A stretch of DNA of 36,790 nt, taken from positions 1-36,790 of the forward strand of contig JAATFW010000348.1 in the NCBI GenBank assembly GCA_015654985.1, read 5' to 3'. The notes under the pieces are model-generated. The model had not been told where the DNA came from. It searched no databases and saw nothing but the letters and a program-made list of their open reading frames with translations. A program made the position numbers and the translations under genes. This DNA is from Sphingobacteriales bacterium. Its GTDB lineage: Bacteria > Bacteroidota > Bacteroidia > Sphingobacteriales > Sphingobacteriaceae. Below are positions 2 through 32,897 of this stretch, piece by piece (the first letter of the stretch is position 1; every line of letters begins with the position of its first letter).

Positions 2-2176
2 TCAAAACCCAGCATGTCTAACGGGAATACTTACCCGGCAATTGCAGTTCCCTGGGGTATGAATTTCTGGACTCCGCAAACCGGTGATATGGGGAATGGC
101 TGGGCATATACTTATGATGCAGATAAGATCAAAGGATTTAAACAAACTCATCAGCCCTCTCCATGGATGAATGATTACGGACAGTTTTCTATCATGCCTG
201 TTACCGGTAAACTTAAATTTACAGAGAACGACCGGGCAAGCTGGTTTTCGCATAAGGCTGAGGTTTCAAAACCATATTATTACAGCGTTTATCTTGCTGA
301 CGCAGATGTAACTACCGAATTGACGCCCACCGAGCGCGCCGCACAATTCAGATTTACATTCCCAAAATCCGACAGCTCTTTTATTGTTATAGATGCTTTT
401 GATAAAGGATCCTATATTAAAATAATTCCTTCAGAAAAAAAGATCGTTGGGTATTCTACCCGTTATAGCCGGGGACCGTTGCCTAACTTTAAAAACTACT
501 TCGTTATTTACATTGATAAGCCTTTCAGCGTTAACAAGACCTGGGATGATAAAGCCCTCAAAACAGAGCTTGAACTTCAGGCTGATCATGCCGGAGCCAT
601 TATCGGCTTTAAGACTGCTAAAGGTGAAAAAGTAAATCTAAGAGTTGCATCTTCTTTTATCAGCATAGAACAGGCAGATCTTAATCTTAAAAGAGAACTG
701 GCAAGCGATAGTTTTGATGCTACCATGCAGAAAGCGAAAGCTTTATGGAATAAGCGGTTAGGTGCAATAAAGGTGGAAGGAGGATCTGTGGATCAGGTGC
801 GTACATTCTATTCAAGTATGTATCGTACGTTATTCTTCCCCCATAAAATGTATGAACTTGACGGCAGTAATAAGATTGTTCATTACAGTCCTTATAACGG
901 CAAAACATTGCCGGGATATATGTTTGCCGGAACAGGTTTCTGGGATACTTTCAGGGCATTATATCCCTTTCTGAACCTGATGTATCCTTCCATTAATAAG
1001 GAGATGCAGGAAGGTTTGGCCAATGATTATAAAGAAGGCGGATGGTTGCCCGAGTGGTCGAGCCCCGGTTATGCTGATATTATGATAGGGAATAACTCTG
1101 CATCTGTAGTTGCCGATGCTTATATTAAGGGGTTAAGAGGTTACGATATTAATACGCTATATGAAGCTCTCATCCACGGAGCCAATAATGAGGGCCCCAT
1201 GACTGCAGTTGGCCGTAAGGGGGTTCAGTATTATAACGATCTTGGCTATGTGCCTTATGACGTTAATATTAATGAGAACGCCGCCCGCACTTTAGAATAT
1301 GCTTATGATGATTTCGCTATTTATAAACTCGGCAAAGCTTTGGGTAAGCCTGAGTCAGAGATCGGAATTTATGCTAAAAGAAGTCAGAATTACCGTAACC
1401 TCTTTGACCCTTCTACAGGATTAATGAGAGGAAAAAATAAAGACGGAAAATTCCAGTCTCCTTTTAATCCATTTAAATGGGGTGACGCGTTTACAGAGGG
1501 AAATAGCTGGCATTATTCATGGTCGGTATTCCACGATGTTCAGGGCCTGGTTAATTTAATGGGCGGCAGCAGTAAGTTTGTAACCAAGCTTGATTCTGTA
1601 TTCTCACTTCCCCCTGTTTTTGATGATAGCTATTACAGGGGTGTTATTCATGAGATCCGCGAAATGCAGGTTGCCGGTATGGGGCAGTATGCTCATGGAA
1701 ATCAGCCGATTCAGCATATGATCTACTTATATAACTACGCCGGCGCCCCATGGAAAACCCAATACTGGGCCCGCGAAGCTATGAACAGGCTATACCGTGC
1801 CACTCCCGACGGGTATTGCGGAGATGAAGATAATGGCCAGACTTCTGCCTGGTATGTTTTTTCAGCCCTTGGATTTTATCCTGTTACGCCGGCTGTAGAT
1901 CAGTATGTGCTGGGAGCACCTTTATTTAAAAAGGTTATTATTCAGCTTGAAAATGGGAAGCAGGTAATAATTAATGCGGCTAACAACAGCGATACAAACC
2001 GCTATGTGAACAATTTGACCTACGATGGTAAATCTTACAGCAAAAATTGGCTGAGCCATTCAGAACTGCAGAAAGGAGCGGTCCTTAATTTTAATATGTC
2101 GGCCACACCCAATACTCAAAGAGGGGTAAATAAAGCTGACTATCCATATTCTTTTTCAAATGAAAAAGACAAGTAG
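2..2176 (+). CDS. GH92 family alpha-mannosidase (5' end outside window)
   Basis: This is an exo-acting, calcium-dependent alpha-mannosidase of glycoside hydrolase family 92, probably periplasmic or surface-exposed. The reading frame is open at the left edge; the first Met (position 14) lies inside the conserved N-terminal GH92 segment (SNGNTYPAIAVPWG), so the true start and signal peptide are upstream. Counting from that Met, the family's catalytic acid is present as Glu495 in TEGNSWHY, and the paired base aspartates are Asp604 and Asp606 in GDEDNGQ. The acid-to-base spacing (109 and 111 residues) equals that recalled for the characterised enzyme Bt3990 (E533, D642, D644). The usual GNEP motif reads GNQP (Glu to Gln), an unusual change near the metal site. 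Linkage specificity (alpha-1,2, -1,3 or -1,6) cannot be read from sequence. The next gene begins 17 bases before this stop codon. Confidence 0.93.
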   Translation, partial: SKPSMSNGNTYPAIAVPWGMNFWTPQTGDMGNGWAYTYDADKIKGFKQTHQPSPWMNDYGQFSIMPVTGKLKFTENDRASWFSHKAEVSKPYYYSVYLADADVTTELTPTERAAQFRFTFPKSDSSFIVIDAFDKGSYIKIIPSEKKIVGYSTRYSRGPLPNFKNYFVIYIDKPFSVNKTWDDKALKTELELQADHAGAIIGFKTAKGEKVNLRVASSFISIEQADLNLKRELASDSFDATMQKAKALWNKRLGAIKVEGGSVDQVRTFYSSMYRTLFFPHKMYELDGSNKIVHYSPYNGKTLPGYMFAGTGFWDTFRALYPFLNLMYPSINKEMQEGLANDYKEGGWLPEWSSPGYADIMIGNNSASVVADAYIKGLRGYDINTLYEALIHGANNEGPMTAVGRKGVQYYNDLGYVPYDVNINENAARTLEYAYDDFAIYKLGKALGKPESEIGIYAKRSQNYRNLFDPSTGLMRGKNKDGKFQSPFNPFKWGDAFTEGNSWHYSWSVFHDVQGLVNLMGGSSKFVTKLDSVFSLPPVFDDSYYRGVIHEIREMQVAGMGQYAHGNQPIQHMIYLYNYAGAPWKTQYWAREAMNRLYRATPDGYCGDEDNGQTSAWYVFSALGFYPVTPAVDQYVLGAPLFKKVIIQLENGKQVIINAANNSDTNRYVNNLTYDGKSYSKNWLSHSELQKGAVLNFNMSATPNTQRGVNKADYPYSFSNEKDK

Positions 2177-4256
2177 AAACAGTTCAGGCATAGCATTTTA
2201 TAAAATGCTATGCCTGCTCATTTTTGTCCCGGGTACCTATCTTTCCGGGCAAACAATTGATAATCAGCAGGGAGTTGCAAGTCTTGTAAATGTTTTTCTT
2301 GGAACGTCGGCCGATCATGGGCAGATGTCTCCGGCTGCATCTTATCCTTTCAGTATGCTGAGCATCGGACCTCAGACTTACCCCAATACTCATACCGGTT
2401 ACGAGTACAATGCCAAACAGTTTCTGGGCTTTACCCATAACCGTTTTGAAGGGGTCGGTTGTACAGGGAGCGGTGGAATCATTTTAATTAAGCCTTTTCT
2501 GGGTTCCGATCCCCGGTCTGAGCTTATAAAAAACGGGCAGGACGGTACCCCAGGCACTTACAGGGTATCTTTTACGAATAAAATAAAGGCTGAACTTTCT
2601 GTATATAAAAACTCGGGTATACATAAATACCAGCTTCCTGAAGGAGAAAAAGGCTTTTTTATAGATCTGAGTCATAGTCTGTCGAACAGTTTTGTGGCTG
2701 AAGAACATACAATTGCGGGCCATACCCTAAGCGGCTGGGTTGATTCCAGAACCACCTGTCATGCCGGAAAGTACAGATCTTATTATTATATCGAATTTGA
2801 TAAGGATGTACGTTTGCAGGATATTTCTGTACATAAGCTTGTCGCAAAGCTTTCTTCCGGTAACAGGGAAGCAGAAATAAGGATCGCATTATCATCCGTG
2901 AATACCAGCTATGCAAAAGCAGCGTTATTCGCCGATTCTTTTGACCAGCTTAAGCAGCATAGTACTAACGACTGGAATAAACTCTTAAGTTCAATTAAGG
3001 TAAAAGGTGATCCTGAACGGGAAAAACTGTTCTATTCCATGTTATACCGTACCGTTCAGTCTCCCTATGTTATTTCTGAAAAGGATGGAACATACCGGGG
3101 AACAAACGGGGTCGAACAGCATTCTTCAGAAGTAATGTATAACGGTTGGGCGGTCTGGGATAATTACCGCACCCAGCTTCCTTTTTTATCTCTGGCATGG
3201 CCCGAAAGGTATCAGGGTATGGTAACGTCGCTTGCCAATCTATACCGCTACGGGAAAAAAGATTATGCTACTCAGAATGAGCCTTCAAATACAGTAAGAA
3301 CAGAGCATGCTATTGTTGTATTGCTGGATGCTTACCGAAAGGGGTATAAAGTAGAATTTGCCGGAATTATGGACTCCTTAATCAGGGAGACAGATCAGCT
3401 TGATTTCTCACATCCTGATAAGGCGCTTGAATCAAGCTACGATACCTGGGCGTTGTCGGAAATCCTCGCAATCCTGAAGAAAAAGGAACTCAGTGAAAAG
3501 TACAGGCAAAAGGCTCTGCGTTACAAAGATTACTGGAATAAAGACTTTAAAGACATCAGCAAACCTGATGTCGACAGGATGCAGGCAAGAGGGCTGTATC
3601 AGGGCACTATCTGGCAGTACCGGTGGTTTGTTCCTTTTGATGTTAAGGGACTGATTGATCTAACGGGAGGAAGCAGTAATTATACTGTTCAGCTTGATGA
3701 GTTCTTTTCCAATGATTATTATAATCACGCCAACGAACCCGATCTGCAGGTTCCCCTGATGTATAATGCTTCTCCGGAGCCATGGAAATCACAGGCACTG
3801 ATGCATAAGCTTGCTGCTGATACCGTTGTTCAGTACTACTTTAACGATAATAGCCGGGGCATAGATCCATTTGTAGACCGTATTTATAAGAACCAGCCAC
3901 AGGCCTATATCCGTACAATGGATGATGACGCCGGTGCGATGTCTGCGTGGTACATTTTTGCAGCCTGCGGTTTTTCTCCCGCATGCGTGGGATGGCCTGT
4001 ATATTACCTCAATGTACCTCTTTTTGAATCGGTGGAATTTACATGGCCGGGAAGGAAACCCTTCACCATCCAGGTTGAAAATTATTCTGCGACTAACAGG
4101 TATATTAAGAAAGTAATATTAAACGGAAAAGAACTTGACCGCAACTATATCACCCATCAGGAAATTATTTCCGGCGGGCGGATGCAAATTGTCGCTTCCG
4201 GCGAGCCGGATGTTAACCGGGGAATTAAAGACCAGTGGATCTCTCATATTAAGTAA
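2160..4256 (+). CDS. GH92 family glycosidase with Gln at the catalytic-acid position
   Basis: This is a second GH92 enzyme of 698 residues with an export signal (hydrophobic MLCLLIFVPGTYLSGQ, residues 16-31). The N-terminal VNVFLGTSADHGQMSPAASY segment and the (alpha/alpha)6 catalytic half are intact. Residue 481, aligned to the catalytic acid Glu, is Gln (LYQGTIWQYRWFVPFD). The base aspartates are kept (Asp588 and Asp590 in MDDDAGAMSAW), as is ANEP. Glu-to-Gln at this site is reported for a GH92 that hydrolyses mannose-1-phospho-6-mannose, where the phosphate leaving group needs no acid. That activity is therefore a reasonable prediction here, but unproven. The start at 2160 overlaps the upstream gene by 17 bases; Met16 at 2205 is an alternative, and it lies inside a perfect palindrome. 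An inactive or otherwise specialised GH92 is the alternative reading. Confidence 0.92.
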   Translation: MKKTSRNSSGIAFYKMLCLLIFVPGTYLSGQTIDNQQGVASLVNVFLGTSADHGQMSPAASYPFSMLSIGPQTYPNTHTGYEYNAKQFLGFTHNRFEGVGCTGSGGIILIKPFLGSDPRSELIKNGQDGTPGTYRVSFTNKIKAELSVYKNSGIHKYQLPEGEKGFFIDLSHSLSNSFVAEEHTIAGHTLSGWVDSRTTCHAGKYRSYYYIEFDKDVRLQDISVHKLVAKLSSGNREAEIRIALSSVNTSYAKAALFADSFDQLKQHSTNDWNKLLSSIKVKGDPEREKLFYSMLYRTVQSPYVISEKDGTYRGTNGVEQHSSEVMYNGWAVWDNYRTQLPFLSLAWPERYQGMVTSLANLYRYGKKDYATQNEPSNTVRTEHAIVVLLDAYRKGYKVEFAGIMDSLIRETDQLDFSHPDKALESSYDTWALSEILAILKKKELSEKYRQKALRYKDYWNKDFKDISKPDVDRMQARGLYQGTIWQYRWFVPFDVKGLIDLTGGSSNYTVQLDEFFSNDYYNHANEPDLQVPLMYNASPEPWKSQALMHKLAADTVVQYYFNDNSRGIDPFVDRIYKNQPQAYIRTMDDDAGAMSAWYIFAACGFSPACVGWPVYYLNVPLFESVEFTWPGRKPFTIQVENYSATNRYIKKVILNGKELDRNYITHQEIISGGRMQIVASGEPDVNRGIKDQWISHIK
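2185..2216 (+). terminator. 32-bp perfect palindrome, terminator- or attenuator-like
   Basis: Each 16-base half-site begins CAGGCATAGCATTTTA and is followed directly by its exact reverse complement. It starts 9 bases after the stop of the first GH92 gene and is followed by CTCATTTTTG, so in RNA it could form a hairpin with a short U-rich tail. It also lies inside the signal-peptide coding region of the second GH92 gene if that gene starts at 2160. It may terminate or attenuate transcription between the two genes, or it may bind a dimeric regulator. Confidence 0.6.
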
Positions 4257-4357: not shown

Positions 4358-4481
4358 AGCTTCATTGCCTTTAAAACAGATTATTCTAATGAAACCTCGA
4401 TAAGCTGCCGCTTACAAACAGAAATGAATAAGAGCTTATCGAAGCTTCATTGCCATTAAAAAACAAATTATTCTAATGAAA
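4358..4481 (+). repeat. Imperfect direct repeat pair with internal inverted repeat
   Basis: Copy 1 (4358-4394) and copy 2 (4443-4481) share AGCTTCATTGCC, then TTAAAA, then ATTATTCTAATGAAA, with a few substitutions and a 2-base length difference. Between them, CGATAAGCT (4398-4406) and AGCTTATCG (4433-4441) form a 9-bp inverted repeat. Copy 2 supplies the start codon of the following phosphatase-fold gene. Copy 1 has the same ATGAAA context, but its frame does not lead into a gene. This looks like a local duplication of a leader region or a regulatory pair of sites. Confidence 0.6.
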
Positions 4482-5411
4482 ATACAACTTACGAATATGA
4501 TAAACAGAAGAGCTTTTCTCTTTATTCTATTGCTGTTACCGGTAATACATCTTGCCGCACAGACTTTAAATGCCGGGACTTATAATATCAGATATGATAA
4601 TCCGGGGGATTCCCTCGATTCATGGAAATACCGAAAACAGGTAGTTACAGAACTGATCACTTTTCATGAATATGATGTTTTTGGTATCCAGGAGGGACTT
4701 ATTAACCAGCTAAATGATCTGTCGGCCGGTTTACCGGGTTATGGATATACAGGCGTGGGAAGGGATGACGGAAAATCGGGTGGCGAATTCTCTGCTATCT
4801 TTTATAAAAAAAGCCGGTTAAACCTGTTGCACAGCGGTACCTTCTGGCTTTCAGGTACCGATATTCATAAACCCAATAGGGGCTGGGATGCGGTACTTCC
4901 AAGGATCTGTACCTGGGCAGAATTTGAAGACAAAGTTACCCATCGTAAATTCTTTCATTTTAACACTCATTTTGACCATGTTGGGGTAGTTGCCCGGAGA
5001 GAGAGTGCCGCTCTTATACTCCGGATGATCACCGAAATAGCAGGACGCTCGAACGTGATTTTAACCGGCGATTTCAATACCGATCAGACCAGCGAGGCTT
5101 ATGCAGTAATTAACAATTCAGGTAAACTGAAAGATTCATACGAAACAGCCGCTTTCAGATATGCTTTCAATGGTACTTTTAATGCTTTCAATATTAATAC
5201 CAAAACCGGCAGCCGGATAGATCATGTATTCCTGTCGCCGGGATTTAAGGTGCTTAAATATGGAATTCTTACAGATAATTATCCGGGAGTATCGTCCGAT
5301 GAGCAGAAAAAGGCCGGTTCAGACAACTTTCCCAAAGAGGTTTCATTAAAACATTATACAGCCCGGTTGCCATCCGATCATTTTCCGGTATTTGTAAAAG
5401 TGAGTTATTGA
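4476..5411 (+). CDS. Exported endonuclease/exonuclease/phosphatase-fold hydrolase
   Basis: This is a DNase I-like (EEP) fold metal-dependent phosphoesterase of 311 residues with a signal peptide (AFLFILLLLPVIHLAAQ, residues 13-29), so it acts outside the cytoplasm. The metal and catalytic motifs are in order: TYNIRYDN (Asn37), IQEG (Glu73), HFNTHFDH (His165, His168), TGDFNTD (Asp199, Asn201), RIDHVF (Asp249, His250) and PSDHFPV (Asp301, His302). EEP enzymes cleave phosphodiesters or phosphomonoesters on nucleic acids, lipids, inositols or sugars. Its position behind two GH92 mannosidases and before a sugar kinase favours a sugar-phosphate substrate. From memory, EEP-family mannoside phosphatases occur in Bacteroides yeast-mannan loci. 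The start at 4476 is uncertain; Met8 at 4497 is also possible. A nuclease role cannot be excluded. Confidence 0.87.
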   Translation: MKIQLTNMINRRAFLFILLLLPVIHLAAQTLNAGTYNIRYDNPGDSLDSWKYRKQVVTELITFHEYDVFGIQEGLINQLNDLSAGLPGYGYTGVGRDDGKSGGEFSAIFYKKSRLNLLHSGTFWLSGTDIHKPNRGWDAVLPRICTWAEFEDKVTHRKFFHFNTHFDHVGVVARRESAALILRMITEIAGRSNVILTGDFNTDQTSEAYAVINNSGKLKDSYETAAFRYAFNGTFNAFNINTKTGSRIDHVFLSPGFKVLKYGILTDNYPGVSSDEQKKAGSDNFPKEVSLKHYTARLPSDHFPVFVKVSY

Positions 5412-5552: not shown

Positions 5553-6449
5553 ATGGACAATTCTTTGGTATTAGGGATAGATATAGGTGGCTCTCATATT
5601 ACCTCTGCTCTTATTGATATTTCCTCAGGGCAAATGGCTCGCGAAACATATGTGCGGAAATTTGTAGATTCTCATCAGACAGCCGGAAAAATTATTACAG
5701 CCTGGTCTGAAGCTATTAACGGGTCTTTTAGCTTAGGTAATATTCCTGTTAACAGGATTGGGATAGCGATGCCGGGGCCTTTGGATTACGAACTGGGTGT
5801 TTGCTGGATTAAAGATCAGGACAAATATGAAAACCTGTACGGATTAAATATCAAAGAATTACTTGCCCGCGAGCTAAAAATAGGGCCCGGCAATATCAGG
5901 ATCATGAATGATGCCTGCTGTTTCCTTCAGGGAGAAGTTCTTGGTACCCTCGATAGTAAATATAAAATAGTAATGGGCTTTACCCTGGGAACAGGCCTGG
6001 GATCAGCAATATATAATGACGGAACAGTTACTGATGCAGATCTGTGGCGTCTTCCGTTTCAGGATGGAATTGCCGAAGATTATCTTTCTACAAGATGGTT
6101 TATCAGGCGATATACGGAATTAACCGGTAAGACAGTAAATGATGTAAAGCACTTACTGGAAGGCGTAGATAACGATCCTGCAGTGCGTGCAATATTCAAG
6201 GAGTTTGGAAGAACGCTTGGCGGATTTTTAAATCATTGTATTGGTACTTATGCGCCTGAAGCAATAGTGCTTGGTGGCAATATTGCTAAATCGCCGGAGT
6301 TATATTTAGAACACCTGGAAAATGTTTTAGCAGAATCCGGCAACCTGATTCCAGTAAGTCTGGCAAGGCTTGGGGAAGAAGCGGCGCTTATAGGTGCAGC
6401 AGGTATCTGGAAAAAGACTCTTCTTTCGGAAAACCAAATTGCAGGTTGA
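5553..6449 (+). CDS. ROK family sugar kinase
   Basis: This is a ROK-family (glucokinase/fructokinase-like) kinase of 298 residues, probably phosphorylating the hexose released by the upstream glycosidases. The N-terminal phosphate-binding motif is GIDIGGSHI (residues 8-16). The catalytic base is Asp120 in MNDACCF, followed by the second glycine-rich motif LGTGLGSA (145-152) and LGGNIAKS near the C-terminus. The CxCGxxGC zinc site of many ROK kinases is not seen; that stretch reads PFQDGIAEDY. Sugar specificity is not clear from sequence; mannose or another hexose would suit the context. The permease gene follows after 52 bases on the same strand, consistent with one transcript. Confidence 0.88.
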   Translation: MDNSLVLGIDIGGSHITSALIDISSGQMARETYVRKFVDSHQTAGKIITAWSEAINGSFSLGNIPVNRIGIAMPGPLDYELGVCWIKDQDKYENLYGLNIKELLARELKIGPGNIRIMNDACCFLQGEVLGTLDSKYKIVMGFTLGTGLGSAIYNDGTVTDADLWRLPFQDGIAEDYLSTRWFIRRYTELTGKTVNDVKHLLEGVDNDPAVRAIFKEFGRTLGGFLNHCIGTYAPEAIVLGGNIAKSPELYLEHLENVLAESGNLIPVSLARLGEEAALIGAAGIWKKTLLSENQIAG

Positions 6450-6501: not shown

Positions 6502-7899
6502 ATGAAACAAGATAAAACAAACAACATTCCTCTTTATGCACTCACCCTGCTGTTTTTTATGTGGGGATTTATTACCTGCATGAACGACGTTCTGATCCCT
6601 CATTTAAAAGAGCTTTTCAACTTAACATATGTGCGGGCGATGCTTGTGCAGTTTTGTTTCTTTGGCGCCTATTTTCTCGGGTCTTTAGCGTACTTTTTAA
6701 TCTCGCACTTTAAAGGCGACCCCATTAATAAAATAGGCTACAAGAACGGAATTCTGATCGGCCTGGTAGTTTCAGCCGTGGGTTGCTGTCTTTTCTATCC
6801 CGCAGCAGCTTTGTCTGTCTATGGTTTATTCCTGGGTGCGTTTTTTATACTGGGCCTGGGCTTTACATTACTTCAGATAACGGCAAACCCATATGTGTCT
6901 CTTCTTGGCCCGGAGGATACAGCATCCAGCCGCTTAAACCTGGTACAGGCGTTTAACTCTTTCGGTACCACCATTGCACCGATTATAGGGGGGTACCTCG
7001 TATTTCAGTTCTTTGCACAAAACGGAGAGCTTTCTGCGGGTGCCACAAAACTTCCTTACCTTATTTTTGGAGCGATCTTTTTTATTGTTGCCATTTTTAT
7101 GAATAAGATAAAGCTGCCGGTATTTAAGGCGGATGAAACCGGCATGCAGGGTATAGGTGCACTTAAATTTCCACAGTTAAAGATGGGCATTGGCGGGATC
7201 TTCTGTTATGTAGGTGCAGAGGTAGCTATTGGCAGCTTTATGATCAGTTTTATTTCTCATGACGATATCGGTGGTTTTTCACAGGCTGCGGCTAAGAACT
7301 ATCTTTCTTTATATTGGGGAGGTGCTATGATCGGAAGATTCCTTGGTTCAATTTCGCTGAATAATAATCTGGCGTTGTCTAAAAAGGTAATTTACATGAT
7401 CGCTACATCAGTTGCCATCTTTGTTCTTATTTTCAGCATTGTAGATCTGTCATTTGCACAGATCAGTGTATTTCTGCTGTTTATTGTGTTAAACCTTGTT
7501 GCTTTCTTTATAGGTAAATCAGCTCCTGCACGCACACTTTCCATATTTGCTGCTGTTAATATTATTCTTTTAATTGTTACTATATTCAGCAAGGGGAGTA
7601 TTGCAATGTGGTCGATTGTAAGTATCGGACTGTTTAACTCAATTATGTGGTCGAATATCTTTACCCTTTCGATTGCGGGATTAGGCCCTTATACAAGTCA
7701 GGGTTCTTCTCTCCTGGTAATGGCTATTCTGGGTGGTGCGCTGGTGCCTCTCTTGCAGGGAAGTATCGCGGATACCGTTGGCGTTCAATATTCATTTTTT
7801 CTGCCGGTGTTATGCTATTGCTATATTCTTTATTTTGGATTCTTCTGTTCCAAAAGAGTGGCGGCTGGCGAGGCAATTATTTCGGCGGCAAGGCATTAA
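6502..7899 (+). CDS. FucP/GluP-type sugar:proton symporter (MFS)
   Basis: This is an inner-membrane major facilitator superfamily transporter of 465 residues from the fucose:H+ symporter (FHS) family, with about 12 hydrophobic segments. Diagnostic stretches are FFMWGFITCMNDVLIPHLK near the N-terminus, and ANPYVSLLGPEDTASSRLNL followed by QAFNSFGTTIAPIIGGYL in the first half. These match Bacteroidota glucose/galactose/mannose permeases. It probably imports the free hexose for phosphorylation by the ROK kinase encoded 52 bases upstream. The exact sugar is not evident. A strong terminator follows about 320 bases downstream, after one small open frame. Confidence 0.9.
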   Translation: MKQDKTNNIPLYALTLLFFMWGFITCMNDVLIPHLKELFNLTYVRAMLVQFCFFGAYFLGSLAYFLISHFKGDPINKIGYKNGILIGLVVSAVGCCLFYPAAALSVYGLFLGAFFILGLGFTLLQITANPYVSLLGPEDTASSRLNLVQAFNSFGTTIAPIIGGYLVFQFFAQNGELSAGATKLPYLIFGAIFFIVAIFMNKIKLPVFKADETGMQGIGALKFPQLKMGIGGIFCYVGAEVAIGSFMISFISHDDIGGFSQAAAKNYLSLYWGGAMIGRFLGSISLNNNLALSKKVIYMIATSVAIFVLIFSIVDLSFAQISVFLLFIVLNLVAFFIGKSAPARTLSIFAAVNIILLIVTIFSKGSIAMWSIVSIGLFNSIMWSNIFTLSIAGLGPYTSQGSSLLVMAILGGALVPLLQGSIADTVGVQYSFFLPVLCYCYILYFGFFCSKRVAAGEAIISAARH

Positions 7900-8221: not shown

Positions 8222-8249
8222 GGGCAGGTTTTCAAACCTGCCCTTTTTT
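8222..8249 (+). terminator. Strong intrinsic terminator of the mannoside module
   Basis: GGGCAGGTTT (8222-8231) pairs with AAACCTGCCC (8234-8243), giving about 9 bp of GC-rich stem with a tetraloop. Six T residues follow at once (8244-8249). This is a textbook rho-independent terminator for + strand transcription and marks the end of the catabolic operon. Confidence 0.9.
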
Positions 8250-9813: not shown

Positions 9814-9816
9814 TTG

Positions 9817-10236
9817 ATGCGCATAAAACAAGTATTTGTCGATACAAATATCCTGATAGATCTTCTTGCAAACAGGCCACCTTTTAGTAAATTTGCTATA
9901 GCGCTTTTCGATCTTGCCGAAAGAAACAAGGTTAATTTGTTTACATCCTCGCATTCTTTTGCAACCAGTCATTACTTACTTAAAAAATATATCGGAGAGA
10001 AAGAGTTAAGGGCTCTGTTACATTCCTTATTAGATTATATTGATCTTGTCCCCATAGATTTGCCCATCATTAAAAAAAGCCTTTTGTCGAACCATAAAGA
10101 CTTTGAAGATGCAATTCAAATATTTGCTGCAGATTCGATAGAGAATCTGGACTTTATTGTCACCAGAAACTTAAAGGATTTTAAAGATGCAGGAGTTAAT
10201 GTTTTGCCGCCGGATGAGTTACTTCTCCATTTGTAA
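9817..10236 (+). CDS. PIN-domain ribonuclease toxin (VapC-like)
   Basis: This is a 139-residue PIN-fold protein, a predicted metal-dependent RNase toxin. Visible acidic residues are Asp9 in FVDTNILIDLL, the DFEDAIQIFAA cluster (Asp95, Glu97, Asp98), and Asp121 in TRNLKDF. The second acidic position of classical VapC is occupied by the TSSHSFATSHYLL stretch, as I recall for this Bacteroidota PIN subfamily. The ATG at 9817 gives MRIKQVFVDTN; a TTG one codon earlier directly abuts the antitoxin stop. The pair forms a compact two-gene operon and appears intact, unlike its decayed neighbours. Confidence 0.85.
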   Translation: MRIKQVFVDTNILIDLLANRPPFSKFAIALFDLAERNKVNLFTSSHSFATSHYLLKKYIGEKELRALLHSLLDYIDLVPIDLPIIKKSLLSNHKDFEDAIQIFAADSIENLDFIVTRNLKDFKDAGVNVLPPDELLLHL

Positions 10237-10708: not shown

Positions 10709-11341
10709 CTAACACGCCACATAGGCGCTATCCGAAGTGTACCGGCCGTTGCGGCTTGCGAACAACAAATAAGCATGCAGCTTGCCGGCTTCGTAAACGG
10801 CCGGAAGATCTGCAGCAATACGCCCGTCGCTTCTTACAGCCTTCTCGCGGAAACTGATTGAAAGACCCTTACTTTCGTTACAGATCACCAACACGGCCTT
10901 ATCTTCAGGCAGCGCTTCCTGACCTGACGTTGGTACCCCGGCCCAGGTTATCTCAATGTGGCTGCCCTCCCGCAAAGCCATCAGGCCGTCCGGTTTGATT
11001 AACGCTCCCCTGCAGAGCACTACCTCCGGGTATATGATCTCTTCTTCAGCATACCCGCCCCTGAAGGCGTGTTTCATCAGGTGGCTGAAAGCCGACCCGT
11101 AAGCCGTTTTACGTGTATACCGGTCTTTCTGCCACATCTCTTCGATCAGCGGCCTGAGCGGACTCAGAAACAGGTTGGCCATTTTCACCTTATTCTGGGT
11201 AGATAACTGTTTCTCAGTGCGTGCTGTCGTCTTTTTCGGCAAAGCCCTCGTATAGCTGCCGCGTACAGGACCGTTACAGAGTACGAGATTTCCTACCTTC
11301 CCTGAAAGAGCAATATTCATTAAATTGGTTACCCTGGCCAT
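10709..11341 (-). CDS. DUF6266 family protein, copy 2
   Basis: This 210-residue protein is of unknown function and belongs to the Bacteroidota-specific DUF6266 family. The N-terminus carries the family pattern (NIALSGKVGNLVLCNGPVRG, cf. GxxSGKVGxxxG). A long region follows with aromatic and Gly-rich segments, ending SDSAYVAC. It is the second of two tandem paralogues, starting after a 1-base gap from the upstream gene, so both are almost certainly co-transcribed and translationally coupled. GC content looks higher than in the surrounding genes. No signal peptide, membrane segment or catalytic motif is evident. Confidence 0.78.
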   Translation of the reverse strand: MARVTNLMNIALSGKVGNLVLCNGPVRGSYTRALPKKTTARTEKQLSTQNKVKMANLFLSPLRPLIEEMWQKDRYTRKTAYGSAFSHLMKHAFRGGYAEEEIIYPEVVLCRGALIKPDGLMALREGSHIEITWAGVPTSGQEALPEDKAVLVICNESKGLSISFREKAVRSDGRIAADLPAVYEAGKLHAYLLFASRNGRYTSDSAYVAC

Positions 11342-11342
11342 A

Positions 11343-12008
11343 TCATTTTTCAGTATTAACGTTGTTCCCTTCGCCTGCCGGCACTATAAAAACCCCGAGG
11401 TAAATCCCCGGAGAATTCTTTGTACCTGCTGCGTTCGTGAAATAAATATACCCGTGCAGATGATCGCCCGCGGACGATCCGGGAATGAGTATCCCGGCCT
11501 TCAGATCTCCCCTGCGCACTTCTCCGGTACTGATTACCGGCACGTCCTGATCACTGTTGTAAAACAGGATGCTTGCCCGGTCTGAGGGAGCCTGGTTATA
11601 CGAGTCGCCCAGGTCAGCCCAGCTTACCACCAGGCAATCCGGTGATTCAAACGAGATTCCCGGTCCGATAGCGCCCGTCAGGCTTCCCGTGCTGAGCACA
11701 ACGGAAGCAAAATCAAGATCGGTGCTATCGCCTTTAAAGGCCCGCATGTTGGCTTTCATGGCAAGATTAAACGCCGAGGCGCGCCCGGTATTCTGATGCT
11801 TAAAGCCGTCTTCCGCCAGCGGCGATACTGCACTAAGAAAATCATAAATCTTAGCAAGGCGTATACAATTGATGTTATTGCCGGTGTCCTGCTTTTTCTT
11901 TGCAGAAGGGAGGCCTTTCAGGTAATAAATATCCCGCCATTTAGCCCCGATCACCGTGCCCACCTTGCCGGAAACGGAGCCGATTACCCCGGGTACTAAC
12001 TCTGCCAT
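11343..12008 (-). CDS. DUF6266 family protein, copy 1
   Basis: This 221-residue DUF6266 protein starts MAELVPGVIGSVSGKVGTVI and continues GAKWRDIYYLKG, the clearest match to the family N-terminal motif. The body (residues 30-215) has beta-rich stretches such as DCLVVSWADLGDSYNQAPSD and HLHGYIYFTNAAG. Function is unknown; I recall members often occurring in tandem arrays in Sphingobacteriaceae, as here. Divergence from copy 2 is large, with only the N-terminal motif and overall layout shared, so the duplication is old or the pair was acquired together. Confidence 0.8.
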   Translation of the reverse strand: MAELVPGVIGSVSGKVGTVIGAKWRDIYYLKGLPSAKKKQDTGNNINCIRLAKIYDFLSAVSPLAEDGFKHQNTGRASAFNLAMKANMRAFKGDSTDLDFASVVLSTGSLTGAIGPGISFESPDCLVVSWADLGDSYNQAPSDRASILFYNSDQDVPVISTGEVRRGDLKAGILIPGSSAGDHLHGYIYFTNAAGTKNSPGIYLGVFIVPAGEGNNVNTEK

Positions 12009-31142: not shown

Positions 31143-32897
31143 ATGCGATATTTCTATTTGGTTTTACAGATTTTATGGGTAGGTTTAATGATAACCGGTG
31201 CAGGTGTTTCAGCACAGACATCCTCTCAGGAGAAGAAAGCTGATACTGTTGTCCGCAGGGCCTTATATTACATGAATGCCGGGATGCCCGATAGCGTTTA
31301 TTCGTTAGCCGGAGAGCAATTTAAAAAACAGCTTAGTGCTCCTTTGTGGAACTCTGTATTCAGGAATAATTTCACGGGGATATTGCCTATAACAGATATA
31401 CTGTTTATCAATAGTAAGGATGGCGTGAATAAATATAAATTACAGGGGAAGGTTCCGCTCTCTTTTTATGCCAGCCTCGACGACCAGGGTAAGCTAAAGG
31501 ACTTTTTATTTCAGCCATATAAAGAAGAAGCAAACCAACCTGCAATGGGCCCGGAGGAAAGAAAAACCGACTCCCTTGCCTTAAAGATTCTGAGCTTCAT
31601 CAATCAAAAACAAACAGATAGCATCTATGCCTATGCCGGAGAGTCTTTCAGACAGCAACTGGATAAAACAGCCTTTAAAAATATTGCGGAGAACAGCGTG
31701 TACCCTCTGACGCCGTTCCCTTCAGCCTCTTTTATAAGCAGCAGGAATGGCGTAAATAAATATAAAATAAACCAGTTCCAGTTTCTCTTTAGCCTGGATG
31801 ATAAGGGGAAATTCAGTACCCTGCTTTTACAGCCATACCGGGAGGATGCGGTAAAAAATGAAAAAGCACTTTCTGATAATCCCTTAAAAACATCCCTTGA
31901 CAGCATCGTTGACAAGGTTTTATCCGAATATATTCAAACTAAAGGGAATGCCGGCTTAAGCGCCGGAATTTATTATAAGGGTAAAGACTATTTTTATAAC
32001 TACGGAGAAACTGTAATGGGAAATAAACAGTTACCCGGCAATCACACTTTATATGAGATTGGCTCCATTACAAAAACATTTACAGCGACTTTGCTGGCCC
32101 TTGCGGTGAATCAGGGTAAGGTAACCCTTGAAACTTCTGTAACCAGGTTCCTTCCCGACTCTGTTGCCTCTAATCCTGCGCTGAAAGGTATTACCTTAAA
32201 AAGCCTTGCCAATCACACATCGGGGCTGCCCCGGCTTCCGCCGAATATGAGTGAAACGGTAACAGATATTAACCAGCCTTACGAACATTATGATGAAAGC
32301 AGGATGTTCTCTTTCTTAAAGGGTTTTAAGGCCATACGGCAACCAGGCGCATCATATGAATACAGCAATTTAGCCGTGGGCCTGCTTGGTGTAATTCTGG
32401 AAAAGGTTTATGGCCGTCCTTACGAAGAACTGGTATCCACCTATATTACCAAACCTTCAGGGATGAAGGAAACAAAGATAACGCCGGATGCCGCCGGTAT
32501 GAAACTGATAGCCCAGGGATACAATGAGCAAAACCAGCCTGTGCCTGTCTGGAAGTTTCAGGCTGTAAAAGCAGCAGGAGCATTAAAATCGTCTTCTAAC
32601 GATTTGCTTCATTACGGTAAACTCCAGATAGGTATTTCTGATAAAACTTTGGAAAAGGCTCTTAAACTAACCCACAGGATCACATTTAAGAATAGTTCTA
32701 ATATTATAGGCCTTGGCTGGCATTATTTACCGGATGATGAGAATATATTACAGCATAGCGGTGGGACGGGGGGATACCGTGCATTTTCAGGCGTTGATCT
32801 TCGCAGAAACATTGTAGTTGCTGTCCTGACAAATAATGCTTCGACCGGTGACGCCCTGGGAGTTCGGCTGATTAAAGCATTTCAGGGAATGAGATAA
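31143..32897 (+). CDS. Exported serine hydrolase (beta-lactamase/PBP4* type) with two DUF3887-like domains
   Basis: This 584-residue protein has a signal peptide (residues 1-25). Two tandem copies of a DUF3887-like domain follow (about 33-130 and 142-236), each with a VYSLAGEQFKKQL / IYAYAGESFRQQL start and a GVNKYK centre. The C-terminal beta-lactamase-fold domain (about 255-580) has nucleophile Ser308 and Lys311 in GSITKTF, Tyr407 in YEYSN and the HSGGTGGY triad (His538) in place of KTG. These features are typical of class C-like esterases/D-aminopeptidases, which act on D-amino acid peptides or esters in the periplasm. True beta-lactamase activity cannot be concluded. The gene stands alone with a weak promoter region (TTATCTTTAAAA) upstream. 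Confidence 0.9.
   Translation: MRYFYLVLQILWVGLMITGAGVSAQTSSQEKKADTVVRRALYYMNAGMPDSVYSLAGEQFKKQLSAPLWNSVFRNNFTGILPITDILFINSKDGVNKYKLQGKVPLSFYASLDDQGKLKDFLFQPYKEEANQPAMGPEERKTDSLALKILSFINQKQTDSIYAYAGESFRQQLDKTAFKNIAENSVYPLTPFPSASFISSRNGVNKYKINQFQFLFSLDDKGKFSTLLLQPYREDAVKNEKALSDNPLKTSLDSIVDKVLSEYIQTKGNAGLSAGIYYKGKDYFYNYGETVMGNKQLPGNHTLYEIGSITKTFTATLLALAVNQGKVTLETSVTRFLPDSVASNPALKGITLKSLANHTSGLPRLPPNMSETVTDINQPYEHYDESRMFSFLKGFKAIRQPGASYEYSNLAVGLLGVILEKVYGRPYEELVSTYITKPSGMKETKITPDAAGMKLIAQGYNEQNQPVPVWKFQAVKAAGALKSSSNDLLHYGKLQIGISDKTLEKALKLTHRITFKNSSNIIGLGWHYLPDDENILQHSGGTGGYRAFSGVDLRRNIVVAVLTNNASTGDALGVRLIKAFQGMR

Follow-up and report, generated by a model that had tools for sequence, protein, structure and literature searches.

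Organization of the locus

The stretch of DNA analysed here (the window) is a whole contig of 36,790 nucleotides from a Sphingobacteriales bacterium (JAATFW010000348.1). It carries two overlapping genes for GH92 proteins, P0001 and P0002, followed by genes for a phosphatase, a kinase and a carrier. The features of interest, all on the forward (+) strand, are:

14..2176, +: P0001, a Bt3990-like GH92 protein with a Glu acid (TEGNSWHYSW); frame open from base 2
2160..4256, +: P0002, a Gln-type GH92 protein of 698 aa, predicted alpha-mannosyl-phosphodiester hydrolase (Pfam, phmmer, tree, Foldseek)
3297..3299, +: Arg380 codon of P0002, candidate phosphate ligand (Arg in 86/86 Gln-types and 0/48 Glu-types)
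3600..3602, +: Gln481 codon (CAG), catalytic acid column (alignments)
3732..3734, +: Asn525 codon, invariant in both GH92 groups (invariant alignment columns)
3921..3929, +: Asp588 to Asp590 codons, with D590 on the general base (alignments; base according to the available portions of PMC12858847 and PMC5930347)
4476..5411, +: EEP-family phosphatase, a relative of 4c1r (phmmer 1.9e-86; Pfam PF03372)
5553..6449, +: ROK-family sugar kinase (Pfam PF00480)
6502..7899, +: MFS hexose transporter of the GluP/FucP type (TIGR01272, 280.7 bits; cut-off 202.55)
8222..8243, +: terminator-like hairpin and T run, a possible transcript end (pattern match only)

The contig start cuts off the 5' end of P0001 and truncates the locus on that side; no GH76 gene is present among the window genes examined. 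P0001 is a close relative of BT3990 (phmmer 1125 bits to 2wvx; Pfam PF07971 and PF17678), and its gene overlaps that of P0002 by 17 bases. The N-terminus of P0002 resembles, by eye, a signal peptide. Terminator-like sites number 11 in the window compared to 6.6 ± 3.0 in shuffled sequences. The organism's own genome holds three GH76 matches above cut-off and one GH125.

Glutamine at the catalytic acid column

P0002 is a GH92 protein by its Pfam matches (PF07971, 293.4 bits; PF17678, 121.5 bits; both above cut-off), but it lacks the catalytic acid Glu of ordinary GH92 O-mannosidases. Positions 3600-3602 read CAG and encode residue 481 of the open reading frame 2160-4256, inside GLYQGTIWQYRW; because Gln481 replaces the acid Glu, we do not class P0002 among the ordinary members of the family. 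When P0002 was compared with PDB sequences using phmmer, BT3130 (6f8z) ranked first, followed by CcMan5 (2xsg, 4aq0). The Gln481 column falls on TEGNxW in 6f8z, 7zgm and 2wzs (BT3990); CcMan5 is likewise devoid of the acid Glu, its GLYQGTLWQYHW pairing with GLYQGTIWQYRW of P0002 and placing its Gln, number 536 in the listed 2xsg chain, opposite Gln481.

The remainder of the catalytic apparatus is retained. D588 and D590 fall on the D.D of GDEDNG, the motif of the Bt3990 type; the first of these columns is N instead of D in most Glu-types (GNED). D590, which occupies the general base column (Asp644 of BT3990), is invariant in both larger alignments, as are N525 and the W-D pair of the -1 site (W333 and D334). 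The assignment of the base Asp in GH92 is taken from PMC12858847 and PMC5930347, in the portions of those papers that were available. Two other accounts of the substitution were considered and excluded: misalignment, given that G482, N525 and D590 are in register across several alignments, and a chance change in a single genome, given the conservation of Gln across relatives. Three Gln-types (L163, L165 and L166) have Arg in the neighboring W485 column. Thus three elements of the sequence-only reading hold. It had placed Gln481 on the catalytic acid, and the CAG codon does align with the TEGNxW Glu of GH92 structures; it had both base aspartates kept, as they are; and it had named a Cellulosimicrobium precedent, which is CcMan5, an enzyme with Gln at the aligned position that the available text of PMC5930347 describes as targeting Man-PO4-Man linkages.

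The extent of the Gln-type was assessed by aligning 136 distinct GH92 sequences drawn from the window, the organism's own genome, sampled Bacteroidota genomes, 80 genome loci and 7 plasmid loci (fragments with fewer than 450 aligned residues were excluded, which removed L011, L012 and L016 of the own genome). The acid column is Gln in 86 and Glu in 50. Arg occupies the R380 column in 86/86 Gln-types and in 0/48 Glu-types, the latter being the 50 minus a Catenovulum sequence (L128), which has the Arg, and a fragment (L013). In comparisons covering columns up to M587, all 82 core Gln-types share D52, H78, G105, W330, V379, E382, Y480, D528 and M587 in addition to R380; these ten signature residues are present also in the Streptomyces, Catenovulum, Novosphingobium and Persicobacter rows, and each occurs in only 0 to 2 of the 48 Glu-types. 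The 80 genome loci (of 329 motif-bearing relatives) were found with two short motifs and, because one of these contains the Gln, the search favored that residue in part, though not R380. A whole-protein search with P0002 matched 72 of 251 family genomes at E <= 1e-150, and 12 of 12 loci examined from those 72 genomes have both Gln and Arg (three, L159, L160 and L162, lie on contigs equal in length to ones already among the motif-found 80).

Trees place P0002 with the CcMan5 type, which is represented in them by a Streptomyces protein sharing 72.6% identity with a piece of CcMan5. In a quick tree of 76 rows selected by hand (27 of the 86 Gln and 49 of the 50 Glu sequences), a branch with 99% support has all 27 Gln rows, together with Catenovulum, to one side. 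A more careful, unrooted tree of 46 of those rows, from which four motif regions were removed, splits 24 of 25 Glu rows from all others at 100/99, with P0002 on the CcMan5-like side; the Streptomyces row joins beside the root as drawn, still among the Gln rows, and its branch – like those of the Persicobacter and Novosphingobium rows – is long. Common ancestry with the CcMan5-type clade therefore holds apart from the motifs, by the 100/99 split and with a long-branched stand-in, and P0002 fits this Gln clade also by its acid column and the surrounding signature. Catenovulum groups with Novosphingobium in the careful tree; a switch between Gln and Glu therefore took place within the clade, in a direction that an unrooted tree does not give. 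Among viral contigs scanned, 32 stretches fit a pattern and none is a relative. No paper on Bacteroidota Gln-type GH92 proteins was found among the titles and abstract openings of the matches listed in the open-licence literature, which omits most subscription journals.

Comparison with described enzymes sharpens the picture. CcMan5 (also CcGH92_5, from Cellulosimicrobium cellulans, an actinobacterium) has Gln in the acid column and shares with P0002 the motifs YQGTxWQYxW, TVRxE, ANExDLQxP and TMDxDAGxMS, but the two are only 24-28% identical and P0002, unlike CcMan5, lies beside a phosphatase, a kinase and a carrier in a Bacteroidota-type mannan context. Alpha-1,2-mannosidases of the BT3990 type have the fold, the base Asp and the -1 W-D pair in common with P0002; they differ in having the Glu acid, in lacking R380, and in reading HGNQPIQH and GDED where P0002 reads HANEPDLQ and MDDD. 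The Catenovulum adriaticum protein (L128) carries the motifs and Arg of the Gln clade yet has Glu in the acid column, the sole such row among 136.

Predicted fold and chemistry

An AlphaFold2 model of P0002, for which 24 own or fetched sequences were aligned, has a mean pLDDT of 82.8 and a pTM of 0.86, with low confidence for the loop adjoining the base (561-587). The best Foldseek match of the model in the PDB is 2xsg (E 1.2e-47, TMq 0.84, 24% identity), with a small lead over BT3130 (5.8e-46). Aligning the sequences and applying the available text of PMC5930347 identifies D334 as the Asp that binds O3/O4, kept in P0002, matches T378/V379 with Cys399/Met400 of BT3130, and puts R380 next, on the loop where the -1 and +1 subsites meet. 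We infer that R380 is a candidate phosphate ligand.

What the loss of the acid means depends on the leaving group. In AnGH92A, an ordinary GH92 enzyme, the mutation E598Q abolishes activity (PMC12858847, in the portion available), and the PDB has an entry, titled as a complex, for the E494Q mutant of a GH92 protein from Enterococcus. Since the change from Glu to Gln is fatal in an ordinary GH92 enzyme, long conservation of the Gln suggests another leaving group: a conserved Gln together with a conserved base is the combination that would be expected for a leaving group that does not have to be protonated. The Gln is nevertheless insufficient as sole evidence for phosphate, because the substitution alone inactivates (same portion of PMC12858847). 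The sequence-only reading had moved from the Glu-to-Gln change, with its Cellulosimicrobium precedent, to a phosphate substrate; loss of Glu taken alone would predict a dead O-glycosidase, and it is the clade signature as a whole that argues for phosphate.

The same two mutants might be taken to mean that P0002 is a pseudo-enzyme, or a mannose-binding protein without turnover. Invariance of D590, N525, W333 and D334 speaks against this, as does the presence of the same Gln in CcMan5, which is described as active, and we regard it as very unlikely. Alternatively, P0002 could be an ordinary alpha-mannosidase in which some other acid, such as E382, takes the place of the Glu. E382 is present in the 82 core Gln-types and absent from the 48 Glu-types, and its loop lies at the -1/+1 boundary (sequence alignment with the available text of PMC5930347). 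However, the loop is the same (TVRWE) in CcMan5, a described phosphodiester hydrolase, and Catenovulum carries E382 and the acid Glu together; E382 is therefore no simple stand-in for Glu, and a replacement acid seems unlikely.

According to our hypothesis, P0002 would be a periplasmic, exo-acting GH92 enzyme of the CcMan5 (Gln) clade, Ca2+-dependent and inverting as expected from the family. The conserved -1 site would hold the mannose while D590 activates the water. Because a phosphate monoester leaves without protonation, it would depart as such, and Gln481 would only hold the leaving oxygen; the phosphate itself may be held by R380 and possibly by H78.

Gene neighborhoods and the likely substrate

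The gene following P0002 offers a clue as to the substrate on which the sequence-only reading had not drawn. Residues 31-309 of the 311 encoded by the EEP gene align with residues 2-282 of the 4c1r chain, the C-terminal stretch included (phmmer, 1.9e-86). 4c1r, which we take to be the B. theta enzyme BT3783, was deposited as a mannosyl-6-phosphatase, and the nearly full-length match makes the window protein a relative, with the same activity predicted. Proteins of this long (4c1r-like) type were compared with short-type relatives from the same bacterial family, using 20 loci of each that were picked by score and are not independent: a GH92 gene adjoins the EEP gene in 9/20 long-type and 0/20 short-type loci (Fisher p 0.0012), and is present anywhere in the stretch examined around it in 10/20 vs 0/20 (Fisher p 0.0004). 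In each of the nine the adjoining GH92 protein is clearly similar to P0001. Searches with two kinds of GH76 seed found no GH76 near the EEP gene in either set of 20 loci.

Association of EEP with the Gln-type gene itself is a different matter. EEP lies within 10 kb of the Gln-type gene at only 3 (L053, L054 and L078) of the 80 genome loci, some of these 80 being incomplete, and the only directly adjacent one, at L078, is 279 aa and not of the long type; the idea of such adjacency as a general rule was accordingly dropped. The joint presence in genomes of a Gln-type GH92 and a long-type EEP (15/24 vs 57/227 genomes, among the matches listed) was also set aside, being confounded by kinship.

Close relatives of P0002 reside in mannan-type loci. 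Only two of five sampled genomes of the same genus, other than its own, carry the Gln-type gene at E <= 1e-150. At L157 and L158 the order is Bt3990-like GH92, Gln-type, third GH92, ROK, with an MFS carrier in one of the two and BSP or SusCD nearby; the gene directly after the Gln-type gene is thus the third GH92 and not EEP, and the best EEP match in both genomes, among the matches listed, is of the short type. L165 reads SusC, SusD, BSP, GH92, Gln-type, GH92, GH92, GH76, and two Rufibacter loci (L064 and L066) read, with other genes interspersed, SusD, GH92, ROK, BSP, Gln-type, GH92, GH76. Bt3990-like and further GH92 genes therefore flank the Gln-type gene at all five loci, and GH76, whose enzymes act on the alpha-mannan backbone (PMC10154615, available part), is present at three. 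The combination that marks a fungal alpha-mannan PUL is found as SusCD, GH76 and GH92 at L165 and as SusD, GH92 and GH76 at L064 and L066. A mannan or high-mannose context for the sub-branch to which P0002 belongs is well supported.

Taken together, the clade, the fold match, the signature, the 4c1r-like neighbor and the mannan loci indirectly support the prediction, already made in the sequence-only reading, that P0002 hydrolyses an alpha-mannosyl phosphodiester. We consider it probable that the enzyme uncaps fungal phosphomannan ahead of dephosphorylation, with the other products of the locus completing the pathway. The likeliest substrate here would be Man-alpha1-P-6-Man caps, on fungal phosphomannan or on mannosyl-phosphorylated high-mannose N-glycans. 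The EEP enzyme (4476-5411) would then dephosphorylate the exposed mannose-6-phosphate, GH92 mannosidases such as P0001 would trim the chain, and mannose would be imported by the MFS carrier and phosphorylated by the ROK kinase.

An order of uncapping, dephosphorylation and trimming has a precedent: B. theta takes phosphate-linked mannose by means of a broad-acting GH38 enzyme and phosphatases (PMC10154615, in the part available). There, in contrast to what is proposed for P0002, GH38 and not GH92 is reported to remove the phosphate-linked mannose. The Bacteroidota route to phosphorylated yeast N-glycans suggested earlier would thus not be the first; since the GH38 route is already described, that of P0002 would be a second, GH92-based entry to phosphorylated fungal wall mannan. 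The own genome has a partial GH38N match above cut-off (38.4 bits), so a GH38 could perform the uncapping step here also.

P0002 is a further member of the CcMan5 kind, and it is the breadth of the clade, with its phosphodiesterase partners, that merits follow-up. When the outer mannose is taken off Man-1-P-6-Man, therapeutic lysosomal enzymes made in yeast are left with exposed mannose-6-phosphate, and a recombinant Cellulosimicrobium cellulans mannosidase has been used to make M6P glycans (PMC9246025, available part). If the prediction is correct, the Bacteroidota clade would supply many more candidate uncapping enzymes, and Catenovulum a natural Glu-bearing relative with which to probe how the acid is dispensed with.

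Beyond the close relatives of P0002 the neighborhoods differ. Another GH92 or a GH76 gene lies near the Gln-type gene in only 9 of 97 Gln loci scanned, and yeast mannan may therefore not be the usual substrate. Neighbors were counted at 94 loci (the 80 motif-found, L131, L020 and 12 others, some genomes being repeated), with genes no more than two places from the Gln-type gene scored as near (362), those four or more positions away as far (674), and position 3 excluded. GDPD is the best label of 18/362 near vs 2/674 far genes (2 of the 18 repeating counted genomes), SusD of 27 vs 12 and SusC of 25 vs 13; EEP gives 3 vs 0 and PI-PLC 1 vs 0, with two further PI-PLC genes at position 3. PI-PLC is found near the Gln-type gene at L131, L124 and L126. 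Recurrent arrangements include DUF218, x, SusC, SusD, Gln-type, GDPD at many Mucilaginibacter loci, DUF218 with PI-PLC at two Hymenobacter loci and a Persicobacter locus, and PIG-L, SSF symporter, DUF2911, Gln-type at 28 loci, mostly of Pedobacter. These partner genes point to phosphate-bearing substrates, and not to yeast mannan specifically.

It is accordingly quite possible, if short of probable, that enzymes of the Gln clade generally cleave alpha-mannosyl phosphodiesters or mannosides that bear phosphate, that their usual substrate is a glycerophospho- or inositol-phospho glycan or glycolipid rather than yeast mannan, and that the window copy was recruited into a mannan locus. The enrichment of GDPD and SusD, the PI-PLC genes and the EEP genes at L053, L054 and L078 all favor this. 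The counts, however, were taken across related genera and lack independence: DUF2911 (29 vs 0) and the SSF symporter (16 vs 1), neither of which has a phosphodiester link, are equally enriched near the gene, as is NUDIX (15 vs 1), because many loci are from close relatives with shared gene order, while DUF218 is not enriched (11 near vs 15 far). The mannan-type context of the window and of its closest relatives also weighs against such a general role. This account overlaps with uncapping of phosphomannan, our preferred reading. Were the substrate an inositol-phospho glycan or glycolipid, its own phosphate could serve as the acid.

Only tentatively would we go further, and picture the Gln-type GH92 proteins as alpha-mannosyl-phosphodiester hydrolases that make up a large clade in Bacteroidota (one genome scan gave 329 relatives with the motifs, 80 of them examined). 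They would reside in small SusCD phosphodiester-utilisation loci with swappable GDPD, PI-PLC, EEP or DUF218 partners and take mannose-phosphate glycoconjugates beyond yeast mannan as their targets; the window copy would be one that a mannan locus has captured, with a mannosyl-6-phosphatase as its partner. The recurrence of GDPD, PI-PLC and EEP as partners gives a testable lead to phosphate-bearing substrates.

The 5' end of the locus

The window is contig C246 in its entirety, and the gene of the Bt3990-like GH92 mannosidase, P0001, is truncated by its 5' end (positions 1-2). Because P0001 extends past this end of the contig, the start of the locus is absent from the window. Directly past the overlap of P0001 with the Gln-type GH92 gene, within the first codons of the latter, lies a perfect palindrome of 32 bases (2185-2216; a stem of 14 pairs and a loop of 4 bases), which may affect translation coupling or may be a chance occurrence.

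Gln-clade genes in other genomes

The order PIG-L, sodium:solute symporter, DUF2911, Gln-type GH92 is kept in 28 loci (L072 and 27 others), for the most part from Pedobacter, and NUDIX is frequently present too. A small locus met repeatedly in Mucilaginibacter (L050, L052, L055, L057, L059 and similar loci) reads DUF218 - x - SusC - SusD - Gln-type GH92 - GDPD; in the L050 variant the GDPD gene precedes the GH92 gene. In SusCD loci of two Hymenobacter and one Persicobacter (L124, L126, L131), a PI-PLC-C1 gene and DUF218 accompany the Gln-type GH92.

One Gln-clade GH92, on a plasmid of Catenovulum adriaticum (L128:11872-14040), holds Glu in the acid column, either a natural reversal or a retained Glu; a GH28 gene adjoins it and an inositol oxygenase gene is nearby.

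Other genes of the window

Three further features were recorded:

9814-10236, PIN-domain protein
10709-12008, minus strand, two DUF6266 genes in tandem
31143-32897, protein of 584 aa with a PF00144 beta-lactamase-family domain

The PIN-domain protein is possibly the toxin half of a toxin-antitoxin pair. The PF00144 family includes peptidases and esterases as well.
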